Shown: one piece after another, positions 52,959 through 56,679 of the stretch | How the letters are laid out: each line of letters opens with the position of its first letter | Numbering within the stretch: position 1 is the first letter of the stretch | Assembly (NCBI RefSeq): GCF_019801145.1 | Contig: NZ_JAHVJQ010000001.1 | Location: 868,001 to 932,000, forward strand | Reading direction: 5' to 3' | DNA length: 64,000 bases | Origin: Leisingera aquaemixtae | Lineage (GTDB): Bacteria > Pseudomonadota > Alphaproteobacteria > Rhodobacterales > Rhodobacteraceae | The notes under the pieces: generated by a model | Seen by the model: the letters and a program-made list of their open reading frames with translations, nothing else | Told to the model about the DNA's origin: nothing | Databases searched by the model: none | Program-made: the position numbers and the translations under genes

Positions 52959-53591
52959 TTACTTGGTGCCGAACATCCGGTCGCCTGCATCGCCGAGGCC
53001 AGGCAGGATGTAGCCTTTCTTGTTCAGCTCCCGGTCCAGCGAGGCCGTGACAATCGGCACATCCGGATGCGCGTCCTTCATCCGCGCTACACCCTCGGGC
53101 GAGGCCAGCAGGCACAGGAAGCGGATGTTGTTGGCGCCGGCATCTTTCAGCAGGTCAATTGCAGCGGCGGAACTGTTGCCGGTGGCCAGCATCGGATCCA
53201 CGGCAATCACCAGCCGGTCCTTCAGCCCTTCAGGCGCCTTGAAGTAATACTGCACCGGCTCCAGGGTTTCCTCGTCACGGTAGAGGCCGACAAAGCCGAC
53301 GCGGGCGGAGGGGATCAGCTCCAGCACACCGTCCAGCATGCCGTTGCCCGCGCGCAGGATCGACACCAGCGCCAGCTTCTTGCCGGCTAGGATCGGTGCT
53401 TCCATCTCCTCCATCGGGGTTTCGATGGCCGTTGTGGTCAGCGGCATTTCGCGGGTGATCTCATAGGCTAAAAGCTGGGTGATCTCGCGCAGCAGGCGGC
53501 GGAAACCGGCAGTGGACGTGCCCTTGTCGCGCATCAGGGTCAGCTTGTGCTGCACAAGCGGGTGATCAACAACGGTCAGGTGGTCGGTCAT
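52959..53591 (-). CDS. upp: Uracil phosphoribosyltransferase
   Basis: 210 residues, the usual length. The N-terminus [40 protein letters not shown], and the PRPP loop [19 protein letters not shown] are diagnostic. It converts uracil and PRPP to UMP. GGAGTG precedes the start. It lies 76 bp downstream of deoB with its own operator-like repeat upstream, so it may be both part of the cdd-deoA-deoB unit and separately controlled. Confidence 0.96.
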
Positions 53592-53654
53592 GGGGCACTC
53601 CTAAAGTTTTGTTTTGCGCGCTTTTACGGGCTTGGCCGCGCCAGGCAAGCGTGT

Positions 53655-53672
53655 TTTGACCATGAGGTCAAA
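53655..53672. promoter_or_regulatory. Operator-like repeat upstream of upp (site 1 of shared pair)
   Basis: Perfect arms TTTGACC (53655-53661) and GGTCAAA (53666-53672) around ATGA. It overlaps the deoB stop and lies 64 bp upstream of the upp start. The same pattern occurs upstream of cdd at 56591-56608. Confidence 0.6.
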
Positions 53673-54879
53673 GAAAGCTCTTGCCGGGGCCTTGGGCCGG
53701 AACGTTCAGATGGGCAGCGATGGAGGCCGCCACATCGGCGAATTTGATCTGCCCGATGGTGCCCGCGTCAAGCCCGGCGATCAGCACCGGCACCTGTTCG
53801 CGGGTGTGGTCGGAGCCGGGCCAGCTGGGGTCATTGCCATGATCGGCGGTCAGCACCAGCATGTCGCCCTTACGCAGCCTGGGCAGCAGGCGGTCAAGTT
53901 CGGCGTCAAACCACTCCAGCGCCCTTGCATAGCCGGAGATGTCGCGGGTGTGGCCGTGCAGGGTGTCGAACTCGACGAAATTGGCAAAGGTCAGGCTGCC
54001 GTCCTCCGCCGTCTCCACCGCTTCAAAAAGATGCTCCATCAGCTTGGCATCCGACCCTTTTTTCAGGGTGTCGATACCGGTCATGGAGAAGATGTCGCCG
54101 ATCTTGCCGATGGCGTGGACCTTGCGTCCAGCGTCCTGCACCCAGTTGGTAAGAACTGGCGCCGGCGGGCTGATTGCGTAATCACGGCGGTTGGTGGTGC
54201 GAGTGAAGCCCTCTTCTGCCGAACCCAGGAAGGGACGCGCGATGACCCGGCCCACTTTCATGGCGTGGAGCCGCGGGGCAATGGCCTCGCAAAGCGCCAG
54301 CAGGCGGTCGAGGCCGAATGTTTCCTCATGCGCGGCGATCTGAAAGACGCTGTCGGCGGAGGTATAGCAAATTGGTTGGCCGGTGCGCATATGTTCGGCA
54401 CCCAGATCATCAAGGATCACCGTGCCGGAGGCGTGGCAGTTGCCAAGGATGCCATCGGTGCCCGCCTGCTCCGCCACAAAGGTGGTCAGATCATCGGGAA
54501 AGGACGGCGCCTGATCGGGGAAATAGTGCCAGTCCCAGGGCACCGGCAGGCCTGCCAGCTCCCAATGGCCCGACGGCGTGTCCTTGCCGCGGCTGAGCTC
54601 GCGGGCAGAGCCCCAGCGGCCCTGAGGCACTGCATCCAGGCCGGGAAACGGCACCGACGACGCCAGCCTCATCGCTGCACCGAGGCCGAGGCGTTCCATG
54701 TTCGGAACATGCAACGGGCCGCTGCGGCCCTCCTCCGCCTGCCCGGCAGTGCAGGCCTGGGTAATATGGGCCAGCGTGTTGGCGCCCAAGTCCGGCAGGT
54801 CGCCGTTGAAGAAAGTGCCGGCATCCGGCGCGCCGCCGATGCCAACGGAATCCATCACCACAAGGAAGGCACGGGGCAT
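53668..54879 (-). CDS. deoB: Phosphopentomutase
   Basis: 403 residues. PRAFLVVMDSVGIGGAPDA (metal-binding aspartate), DTPSGHWELAGLPV with the catalytic threonine region, and LVLTADHGNDPSWPGSDHT (metal ligands) are typical of DeoB. It interconverts (deoxy)ribose-1-phosphate and 5-phosphate in nucleoside breakdown. Start ATG 54879 overlaps the deoA stop by one base (TGATG), indicating coupling. Confidence 0.96.
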   Translation of the reverse strand: MPRAFLVVMDSVGIGGAPDAGTFFNGDLPDLGANTLAHITQACTAGQAEEGRSGPLHVPNMERLGLGAAMRLASSVPFPGLDAVPQGRWGSARELSRGKDTPSGHWELAGLPVPWDWHYFPDQAPSFPDDLTTFVAEQAGTDGILGNCHASGTVILDDLGAEHMRTGQPICYTSADSVFQIAAHEETFGLDRLLALCEAIAPRLHAMKVGRVIARPFLGSAEEGFTRTTNRRDYAISPPAPVLTNWVQDAGRKVHAIGKIGDIFSMTGIDTLKKGSDAKLMEHLFEAVETAEDGSLTFANFVEFDTLHGHTRDISGYARALEWFDAELDRLLPRLRKGDMLVLTADHGNDPSWPGSDHTREQVPVLIAGLDAGTIGQIKFADVAASIAAHLNVPAQGPGKSFL

Positions 54880-56183
54880 CAGGAGATCCTTTCGTGAACC
54901 AGCGGCGGCAGGGTGTCCGGCGCATCGCCGATGGCGATGGCCGCCTGGACCGCAGCCTCTGCCATGTCTGCTGCATCTTCGCTGGCGGCGTGGATGCGGG
55001 CAAGGGTGTCTCCTGCCCCGACCTTCCGGCCCAGGCGGGCAATGTCCGAGATGCCAACACCCGGTTGAATCTTGTCGCTTTCCACCATCCGGCCGCCGCC
55101 CAGAGCGACCACTGCCAGGCCAAGTGCCTCGCCATTCATGGCGGAGACATGCCCGGCTGCGGGGGCTTTGACTTCGCGCACCACTTCTGCGCCCGGAAGG
55201 TGATCCTGCCATTTTGAAGCAAAGTCCGCGGGGCCGCCCATGGCAGCAATCATCTTGGCAAAGCGTTCTGCCGCGCGGCCATCGGTAAGGGCTGCGCCGA
55301 TCCTGGCCGCGCCGTCATCAGCATCCGCTGCGAGGCCCGCGTGGGCCAGCAGCTCTCCGCCCAGTATTGCAGTGATCTCCGCCAGAGGCGCGGATGCGCC
55401 GCATGTCAGCACCCGCATCACCTCCGCCACCTCCAGCGCGTTGCCAAGCGCCGGTGCCAGCGGCTGGTTCATGTCGGTGATCAGCGCAGAGGTCTTACAG
55501 CCCGCAGCATTGGCGGTATCGCAAAGCGATTGCGCCAGCGCCCGGGCGTCATCGGCGGTCTTCATGAAAGCGCCGGAGCCGATCTTGACGTCCAGCACCA
55601 GCGCATCCGGCGAGGCCGCGAGTTTCTTGGAGAGGATCGAGGCGGTGATCAGGTCGAGGCTTTCCACCGTCGCGGTCACATCGCGGATTGCGTAAAGGCG
55701 TTTATCCGCGGGGGCGATCTGCGCCGTGGCGCCGACAATGGCACAGCCCATGTCCTGCATCATCCGGCGCAGGTGGTCTTCGCTGACGCTGGTGGAGACT
55801 CCGGGGATCGCTTCCAGCTTGTCCAGCGTGCCGCCGGTGTGGCCGAGCCCGCGGCCGGAGATCATCGGCACATAAGCCCCGCAGGCCGCCAGCGCAGGCG
55901 CCAGCAGCAGCGAGACGCAATCGCCCACACCGCCGGTGGAATGCTTGTCCAGCACCGGGCCGTCCAGGTCCCACGTCAGCACATCGCCGGTGTCGCGCAT
56001 CGCCAGCGTCAGGGCGCGGCGTCCTTCGACGCTGAGGCCTTGCAGGCAGACCGCCATGGCAAAGGCCCCGGCCTGCGCGTCCGAGACTGCGCCGCTGGCC
56101 AGGCCGTCGGCAAACCAGCGCAGCGCGTCCTCGCCGGGCGTTTCACCGCGCCGGAGCGTTGCGTTGATGGCGCGGGCGTCCAT
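54879..56183 (-). CDS. deoA: Thymidine phosphorylase
   Basis: 434 residues. The signature MISGRGLGHTGGTLDKLEA is complete, with DKHSTGGVGDCVSLLLAP (phosphate site) and KIGSGAFMKT. It phosphorolyses thymidine and deoxyuridine to base and deoxyribose-1-phosphate. It overlaps cdd upstream and deoB downstream by one base each (TGATG), so the three are one translational chain. Confidence 0.97.
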   Translation of the reverse strand: MDARAINATLRRGETPGEDALRWFADGLASGAVSDAQAGAFAMAVCLQGLSVEGRRALTLAMRDTGDVLTWDLDGPVLDKHSTGGVGDCVSLLLAPALAACGAYVPMISGRGLGHTGGTLDKLEAIPGVSTSVSEDHLRRMMQDMGCAIVGATAQIAPADKRLYAIRDVTATVESLDLITASILSKKLAASPDALVLDVKIGSGAFMKTADDARALAQSLCDTANAAGCKTSALITDMNQPLAPALGNALEVAEVMRVLTCGASAPLAEITAILGGELLAHAGLAADADDGAARIGAALTDGRAAERFAKMIAAMGGPADFASKWQDHLPGAEVVREVKAPAAGHVSAMNGEALGLAVVALGGGRMVESDKIQPGVGISDIARLGRKVGAGDTLARIHAASEDAADMAEAAVQAAIAIGDAPDTLPPLVHERIS

Positions 56184-56575
56184 CAGCTGCGCTCCATATG
56201 ATCCGCGTCAAAGGCGCCGGGCAGCAGCGCGGCGATGGTGGTTTCCTGCTCCTCGCCGTCGGTGGTGGCCATGATGACCTTGACGTCTCCGCTGGCGAAT
56301 TCCTTTATCTTCTGGCGGCAGCCGCCGCAGGGGGTGATCGGGGTCGGGCAGTCGGCGATCACATAGACCTCCGCCAGGTTTTTCTCCCCTGCAGCCACCA
56401 TCGAGGCGATGGCGCCGGCCTCGGCGCAGGTGCCCTCAGGATAGGCGACGTTTTCGACATTGCAGCCCACATAGATCTGGCCGGAGGCGGAGCGGACAGC
56501 GGCGCCGACCTTAAAGTTGGAATACGGCGCGTGGGCGTTTTCGCGGACGGCGGCGGCGGCGGCTTTGAGGCTCAT
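56183..56575 (-). CDS. cdd: Cytidine deaminase
   Basis: 130 residues from ATG 56575, preceded by GGGGAA; an upstream ATG at 56599 would overlap the operator-like repeat. The zinc-dependent deaminase motifs are CAEAGAI (H/C-A-E) and PCGGCRQ (PCxxC), with NFKVGAAV and NVENVAYPEGTC. It converts cytidine and deoxycytidine to uridine and deoxyuridine. First gene of the nucleoside salvage operon. Confidence 0.96.
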   Translation of the reverse strand: MSLKAAAAAVRENAHAPYSNFKVGAAVRSASGQIYVGCNVENVAYPEGTCAEAGAIASMVAAGEKNLAEVYVIADCPTPITPCGGCRQKIKEFASGDVKVIMATTDGEEQETTIAALLPGAFDADHMERS

Positions 56576-56590
56576 GGCGATTCCCCGGTT

Positions 56591-56608
56591 TTTGATCATT
56601 TGGTCAAG
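56591..56608. promoter_or_regulatory. Operator-like repeat upstream of cdd (site 2 of shared pair)
   Basis: TTTGATC (56591-56597), ATTT, GGTCAAG (56602-56608): the same length and spacing as site 1 before upp, with two changed bases. It lies 16-33 bp upstream of the cdd start, where a repressor would block the promoter or leader. Confidence 0.55.
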
Positions 56609-56679
56609 ATGCCGCAGGATAGCTGAATTACTCCGCGAAGCGGAAGCCCCCGGATGCAGTTCTTTGCCCAGATCCCCGC

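Follow-up and report, generated by a model that had tools for sequence, protein, structure and literature searches.

The salvage operon cdd-deoA-deoB-upp of Leisingera aquaemixtae carries two similar palindromes, one before cdd and one at the deoB/upp junction, and the locus raises the question of what binds them. The operon was analyzed within a 64,000-nucleotide (nt) stretch of contig NZ_JAHVJQ010000001.1 (positions 868,001 to 932,000), hereafter the window, whose numbering is used unless a contig is named. As judged from sequence comparison, with a probability of roughly 90%, the two palindromes are predicted operators of the genome's own RutR-type TetR regulator, which would respond to uracil and link salvage with the catabolism and uptake of pyrimidines.

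The two palindromes and a RutR-type regulator

The palindrome before the operon (cdd box, 56591-56608, minus strand, 22.9 bits with the weight matrix described below) reads TTTGATCATTTGGTCAAG on the forward strand and CTTGACCAAATGATCAAA on the coding strand. The one at the deoB/upp junction (upp box, 53655-53672, minus strand, 23.6 bits) reads TTTGACCATGAGGTCAAA and TTTGACCTCATGGTCAAA, respectively. A first-pass annotation had reported both, and both were present at these positions. It had ascribed 7-base arms to each; this is true of the upp box, a perfect 7-4-7 palindrome, whereas the cdd box is imperfect and pairs at 5/7 arm positions only. The start of cdd is best placed at 56575, with the cdd box 16-33 nt upstream. 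At 64-81 nt upstream of upp, the upp box overlaps the deoB stop codon, as had also been noted.

The exact pattern of the first-pass annotation, TTTGAYC-N4-GGTCAAR, occurred at three places only in the whole genome, each at pyrimidine genes. Besides the cdd and upp boxes, it matched at C1:837553, in the gap that separates a Zn-dependent amidase gene from a divergently oriented TetR-family gene. The latter, rutR (C1:837704-838315), lies outside the window, 83 kb from the upp site. The best solved relatives of its product were structures of E. coli RutR (E 3e-52 over residues 13-180), followed by another protein at 8.5e-14. Both a TetR_N domain (PF00440, 60.7 bits) and a YcdC-like TetR_C_3 domain (PF08362, 154.3 bits) were found above gathering scores. 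The regulator keeps all seven residues checked from the uracil pocket and the DNA contacts (K52, K62, W77, Y97, W167, Q171 and Q179, E. coli numbering), as listed for E. coli RutR in the available part of PMC10891134. Its gene is surrounded by genes for a dihydropyrimidinase, the dihydropyrimidine dehydrogenase (DPD) subunit PreA, a Fer4_20 oxidoreductase, an NMT1/THI5-type ATP-binding cassette (ABC) transporter and an allantoate amidohydrolase-type amidase, a neighborhood that is the reductive pyrimidine route.

The trans-acting, dimeric regulator postulated by the first-pass annotation has a candidate in this RutR-type gene, whose family binds as dimers (available part of PMC10891134). On the annotation's remark that no regulator is encoded nearby, Pfam searches of seven flanking genes (49.4-62.8 kb) found no DNA-binding regulator domain, the remaining genes of the window not having been scanned for regulators. 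A dedicated salvage repressor near the cluster was rejected on this result and on the exact motif, which pointed to rutR. Nor is the regulator likely to be dedicated to salvage, as had been supposed, because the same box precedes rutR and genes for reductive catabolism, an ABC transporter, a uracil-permease-like protein and an aminotransferase. The RutR reading takes the place of the unknown, dedicated repressor that had been guessed at.

Further scoring used two genome samples: 21 Leisingera-like genomes (genus sample) and 120 genomes, one per genus (family sample). The genome studied here is included in the denominators 113, 116, 30, 20 and 21. The weight matrix (maximum 33.8 bits) was trained on boxes before rutR from 27 other genera. 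These came from 30 rutR loci, the best 30 of the 102 family genomes with a RutR match, after exclusion of the own genome and of L020 and L031, both with fewer than 13 of the 16 consensus letters. As a control for pattern and matrix counts, the motif was read backwards.

The matrix ranked the upp box first and the cdd box second in the window, and the third site reached 11.1 bits. Under a model of independent bases, chance would produce 0.001 sites with 22.9 bits or more in 64 kb, or 0.08 in a genome. With up to two mismatches to the exact pattern, the window held five strand-matches versus 0.69 expected; none of 100 shuffles reached five, and the two sites contributed four of them. With up to one mismatch, the whole genome held 20 strand-matches (backwards-read control, 7), and a 14-letter pattern occurred at 105 places in the genus sample (control, 25). 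The first-pass annotation had held that a genome-wide occurrence at chance frequency would refute its reading; with three exact places, all at pyrimidine genes, this was not the case.

The boxes elsewhere in the genome extend the predicted regulon. They stand between the amidase gene and rutR (32.9 bits), before the gene of the ABC binding protein (24.4 bits), before the Fer4_20 oxidoreductase gene adjoining preA (21.4 bits), and upstream of two further genes, one for an NCS2 uracil-permease-like protein (distance 98 nt; 22.2 bits) and one for a class III aminotransferase (distance 42 nt; L175:753-2086; C4:523952-525285; 22.9 bits). Among the genus stretches fetched, the box was followed by the NCS2 permease in 6/6 and by the aminotransferase in 7/8; these stretches were fetched since they held a similar box, so the counts show position, not frequency. 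The box of L414 (17.9 bits) matched neither gene. Five one-mismatch places (C2:156085, C4:504073, C15:49619, C1:306279 and C1:349013) scored 9.1-12.4 bits, and two (C4:28358 and C2:171037) scored below 8 bits, with a separate 13.6-bit match 1.7 kb from C2:171037. Another one-mismatch place, C4:245445 (17.2 bits), was dropped as a RutR target, being inside long reading frames.

Two observations concern the same boxes. The best models for the class III aminotransferase were those of glutamate-1-semialdehyde aminomutase, below cut-offs, and the box-gene pair recurs in seven other genus genomes; a beta-alanine or 3-aminoisobutyrate step is perhaps its role, as a guess. A 23.2-bit box in two genus genomes (L415:1284 and L416:1285) adjoins neither the permease nor the aminotransferase gene.

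Conservation in the genus and the family

Both boxes were kept in all 21 genus genomes, the cdd box with 13-14 and the upp box with 14-15 of the 16 consensus letters. At cdd, the bases further upstream were poorly conserved. At the junction, the end of deoB with its TGA extended into the upp box in 21/21 genomes. The nearest named relatives by Cdd were Leisingera sp. ANG59 and JC1 (96%).

In the family sample, up to 300 nt upstream of cdd or upp were scanned, and a score of at least 8 bits was counted as a box. Partial matches were left unscored (G019 among the 117 upp genomes, G021 among the 114 cdd genomes), as was the second cdd match of G032. A box was found before cdd in 18/113 genera and before upp in 3/116. 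The cdd boxes were positioned consistently, with 17/18 ending 8-40 nt before the start. When the scan was repeated with 60 column-permuted palindromic matrices, the mean was 0.47 hits and the maximum 6, compared with the 18 real ones. The conservation that the first-pass annotation had predicted at cdd and upp orthologs holds throughout the genus; in the family, it holds for a minority of genera at cdd and rarely at upp. Complete retention in the genus and few genera in the family indicate that the boxes are real and lineage-restricted, not chance, and suggest that salvage genes enter and leave the RutR regulon between genera.

RutR itself is more widespread. A match (E <= 1e-20) was found in 102/120 family genomes, a few of them only 35-36% identical. 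Among the 30 best family loci, 28 had a box upstream of rutR itself, ending 90-213 nt before the gene and agreeing with 13-16 of the 16 consensus letters; in the genus, this box was identical in 20/20 loci. Of the scored genomes, 18 of the 98 with a RutR match had a cdd box, compared with 0 of the 15 lacking such a match (Fisher p 0.061), a link that is only suggestive.

Among 80 titled loci, 30 had a cdd box, including 15/15 from Ruegeria. Ten had a box of at least 13 bits at +2900 to +2959 from cdd, an offset matching the deoB-upp junction (the upp start was not located there), and six of the ten were outside the Leisingera group (L327, L334, L340, L346, L351 and L385). Both boxes were also present in a cdd region resembling that of Leisingera (82% Cdd) on a contig titled 'Nocardioides marinus' DP1N28-1 (L323), probably a mislabelled record.

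As side observations on the regulator, rutR was accompanied in several genera by another RutR-like gene (36-40% identical) no more than 300 bases away (e.g., G051:C4:1902303-1903709 and G100:C1:118425-119703). In G008, only a 35% relative was found, with a box about 100 nt before its gene.

Placement at candidate promoters and alternative explanations

The gene identities in the cluster were upheld by NCBIfam models, in agreement with the salvage cluster described earlier. All four genes are on the minus strand: cdd (cytidine deaminase, 56183-56575; NF004064, 139.9 bits, cut-off 74), deoA (thymidine/pyrimidine-nucleoside phosphorylase, 54879-56183; NF004490, 573 bits, cut-off 269), deoB (phosphopentomutase, 53668-54879; NF003766, 480.4 bits, cut-off 256) and upp (uracil phosphoribosyltransferase, 52959-53591; NF001097, 292.9 bits, cut-off 114).

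Each box has promoter-like blocks at a fixed distance. At cdd, a TA(T/G)NCT hexamer preceded the box in 21/21 genus genomes, in each case ending 7 nt before it; here it is TATCCT (56616-56621, minus strand), a candidate -10 element. The cdd box would thus begin at about +1, a classic place for a repressor. At upp, the candidate -35 element CTTGCC (53644-53649, minus strand) lies 5 nt downstream of the box and is followed by the candidate -10 element TAAAAG (53621-53626, minus strand). The order box, 5 nt, CTTGCC, 17 nt, TAAAAG was kept in 21/21 genomes, whereas the distance from TAAAAG to the ATG varied between 28 and 44 nt. If transcription started 7 nt after TAAAAG, the box would occupy about -58 to -41. 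No promoter was found by a sigma-70 consensus scan, and the candidate blocks therefore rest on conserved spacing. This fixed spacing supports a separate upp promoter and, with it, the internal control of upp proposed in the first-pass annotation, which could be negative or positive.

A mechanism can be proposed on this basis. Without uracil, a RutR dimer would occupy the boxes. Because the cdd box would cover the likely transcription start, RutR is proposed to repress cdd-deoA-deoB-upp there. At the deoB/upp box, just upstream of the likely upp promoter, it would either repress or block read-through from deoB. Uracil (or thymine), supplied by Cdd/DeoA or by uptake, would release RutR from the boxes, so that salvage to uridine monophosphate (UMP), uptake and reductive degradation would go up together. 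We infer that a single uracil-sensing repressor over Cdd and DeoA, which lead to uracil, over Upp, which makes UMP, and over the catabolic genes, which take the excess, would be coherent. It would give marine roseobacters a testable uracil-responsive regulon, with pyrimidine uptake, breakdown and recycling under one regulator. At the deoB/upp junction, RutR may alternatively act as a roadblock to deoB read-through or as a helper of the upp promoter and not as a plain repressor, which we consider rather unlikely. If true, uracil would adjust, inside a single operon, how much nucleosides are broken down relative to UMP salvage, instead of raising all genes uniformly.

A different protein could also bind the boxes, for instance a RutR paralog (contig C16) or an as yet unknown repressor that shares the motif and is dedicated to salvage. 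The paralog is 46% identical to RutR and keeps the five residues of the uracil pocket, but it has T in place of K52, a base-contacting residue of RutR. Its gene neighbors coenzyme F420 genes, and the stretch fetched around it contained no box above 8 bits (7.2 bits being the best near the gene). The paralog was found in 10/21 genus genomes, not counting a 39% relative in G138, whereas the boxes were present in 21/21. Another binder is therefore improbable, and RutR remains the preferred one.

The surroundings of the paralog deserve mention in their own right. Its gene follows an F420 operon (L168:360-6732; C16:1359-7731) with genes for a CofH-type radical SAM protein, CofD, CofC and CofE, an F420-dependent NADP oxidoreductase-like gene and a gene for an F420-dependent LLM oxidoreductase (TIGR03842, 505 bits). 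The LLM gene adjoins the paralog in 10/10 genus paralog loci. RutA of E. coli is a luciferase-like enzyme, so an F420-dependent, pyrimidine-type breakdown under the C16 paralog is worth considering.

The palindromes could instead work as RNA hairpins, as an attenuator or a processing site. The upp site alone does fold well as RNA (-7.9 kcal/mol, z -4.1), but at the cdd site there is hardly any folding (-0.6 kcal/mol, z -0.56), and for the wider leaders shuffled sequences did equally well (z -0.37 and 0.61). Moreover, the arms are near-invariant in the genus and do not covary, no Rfam match was found at gathering scores, and the motif also precedes several other promoters. DNA operators are strongly preferred over hairpins, which are very improbable. 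A chance origin without function is the least probable explanation of all: it would fit the 95/113 genera at cdd and 113/116 at upp that have no box of at least 8 bits, but not the minute number of such sites expected per window, the retention in every genus genome (with the flanks of the cdd box being poorly conserved) or the location of 3/3 exact genome matches at pyrimidine genes.

Several findings weigh against the two boxes being RutR operators. The regulator scored below both NCBIfam RutR equivalog cut-offs (TIGR03613, 213.5 vs 368; NF011584, 192.7 vs 230) and is therefore called RutR-type, not a strict equivalog. Across the family, the bare motif TTGACCN4GGTCAA showed only mild enrichment over its backwards-read control (102 vs 71 places), so the case rests on box locations, not on raw counts. 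The backwards-read matrix yielded 4/113 hits for cdd (0/116 for upp), and at a 13-bit threshold the association of cdd boxes with RutR weakened to 0/15 vs 13/98 (p 0.14). Outside the genus, upp boxes were rare: one was strong (G041), and the other was weak (G081, 8.8 bits), its genome having no RutR match. The genus genome G134 (90% complete, about 410 contigs) had both boxes and no RutR match, perhaps an assembly gap. Downstream of the upp box, the adjoining block was about as conserved as the box itself, so that the box does not stand out by its conservation; it also lies upstream of the -35 block, not a plain repressor's place. Lastly, the best score in the E. coli rutA-rutR gap was only 10.2 bits.

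Comparison with known RutR systems

An often quoted RutR consensus is TTGACCANNTGGTCAA. Literature searches, which did not extend to subscription papers and databases, found no paper pairing RutR with Rhodobacteraceae and none pairing it with both RegPrecise and uracil. For the cdd and upp product names, there was no RutR among the matches listed, and a further paper, on E. coli promoters (PMC3661553), mentions RutR once and cytidine deaminase five times.

The closest known system is that of E. coli. Its RutR is likewise a TetR-family protein with a YcdC-type C-terminal domain and the same DNA- and uracil-contact residues where checked. It binds a similar palindrome of about 16 bp, and the rutA/rutR and carAB regions are named among its targets (available part of PMC10891134). 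In the E. coli stretches fetched, the best hits of our family matrix were in the gap between rutA and rutR, at the score given above, and upstream of carA (19.3 bits). The two systems differ in that E. coli uses the Rut pathway, whereas the Leisingera regulator is linked to the reductive (dihydropyrimidine) route and boxes stand also at the cdd operon and at upp. At the carAB P1 promoter, RutR activates indirectly by interfering with PepA, according to the accessible text of PMC10891134. This RutR box, at which RutR is no plain repressor, may be a model for upp.

Across Proteobacteria, RutR regulons have been described for 68 genomes in 13 groups, with 10.9 targets per genome and taxon-specific substitutions in the motif (available part of PMC5343134). 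As in those regulons, in which RutR appears as a regulator of pyrimidine catabolism (same source), the predicted Leisingera regulon includes pyrimidine catabolism. The boxes at cdd and upp are very probably a sensible extension of known RutR control and not a new control system.

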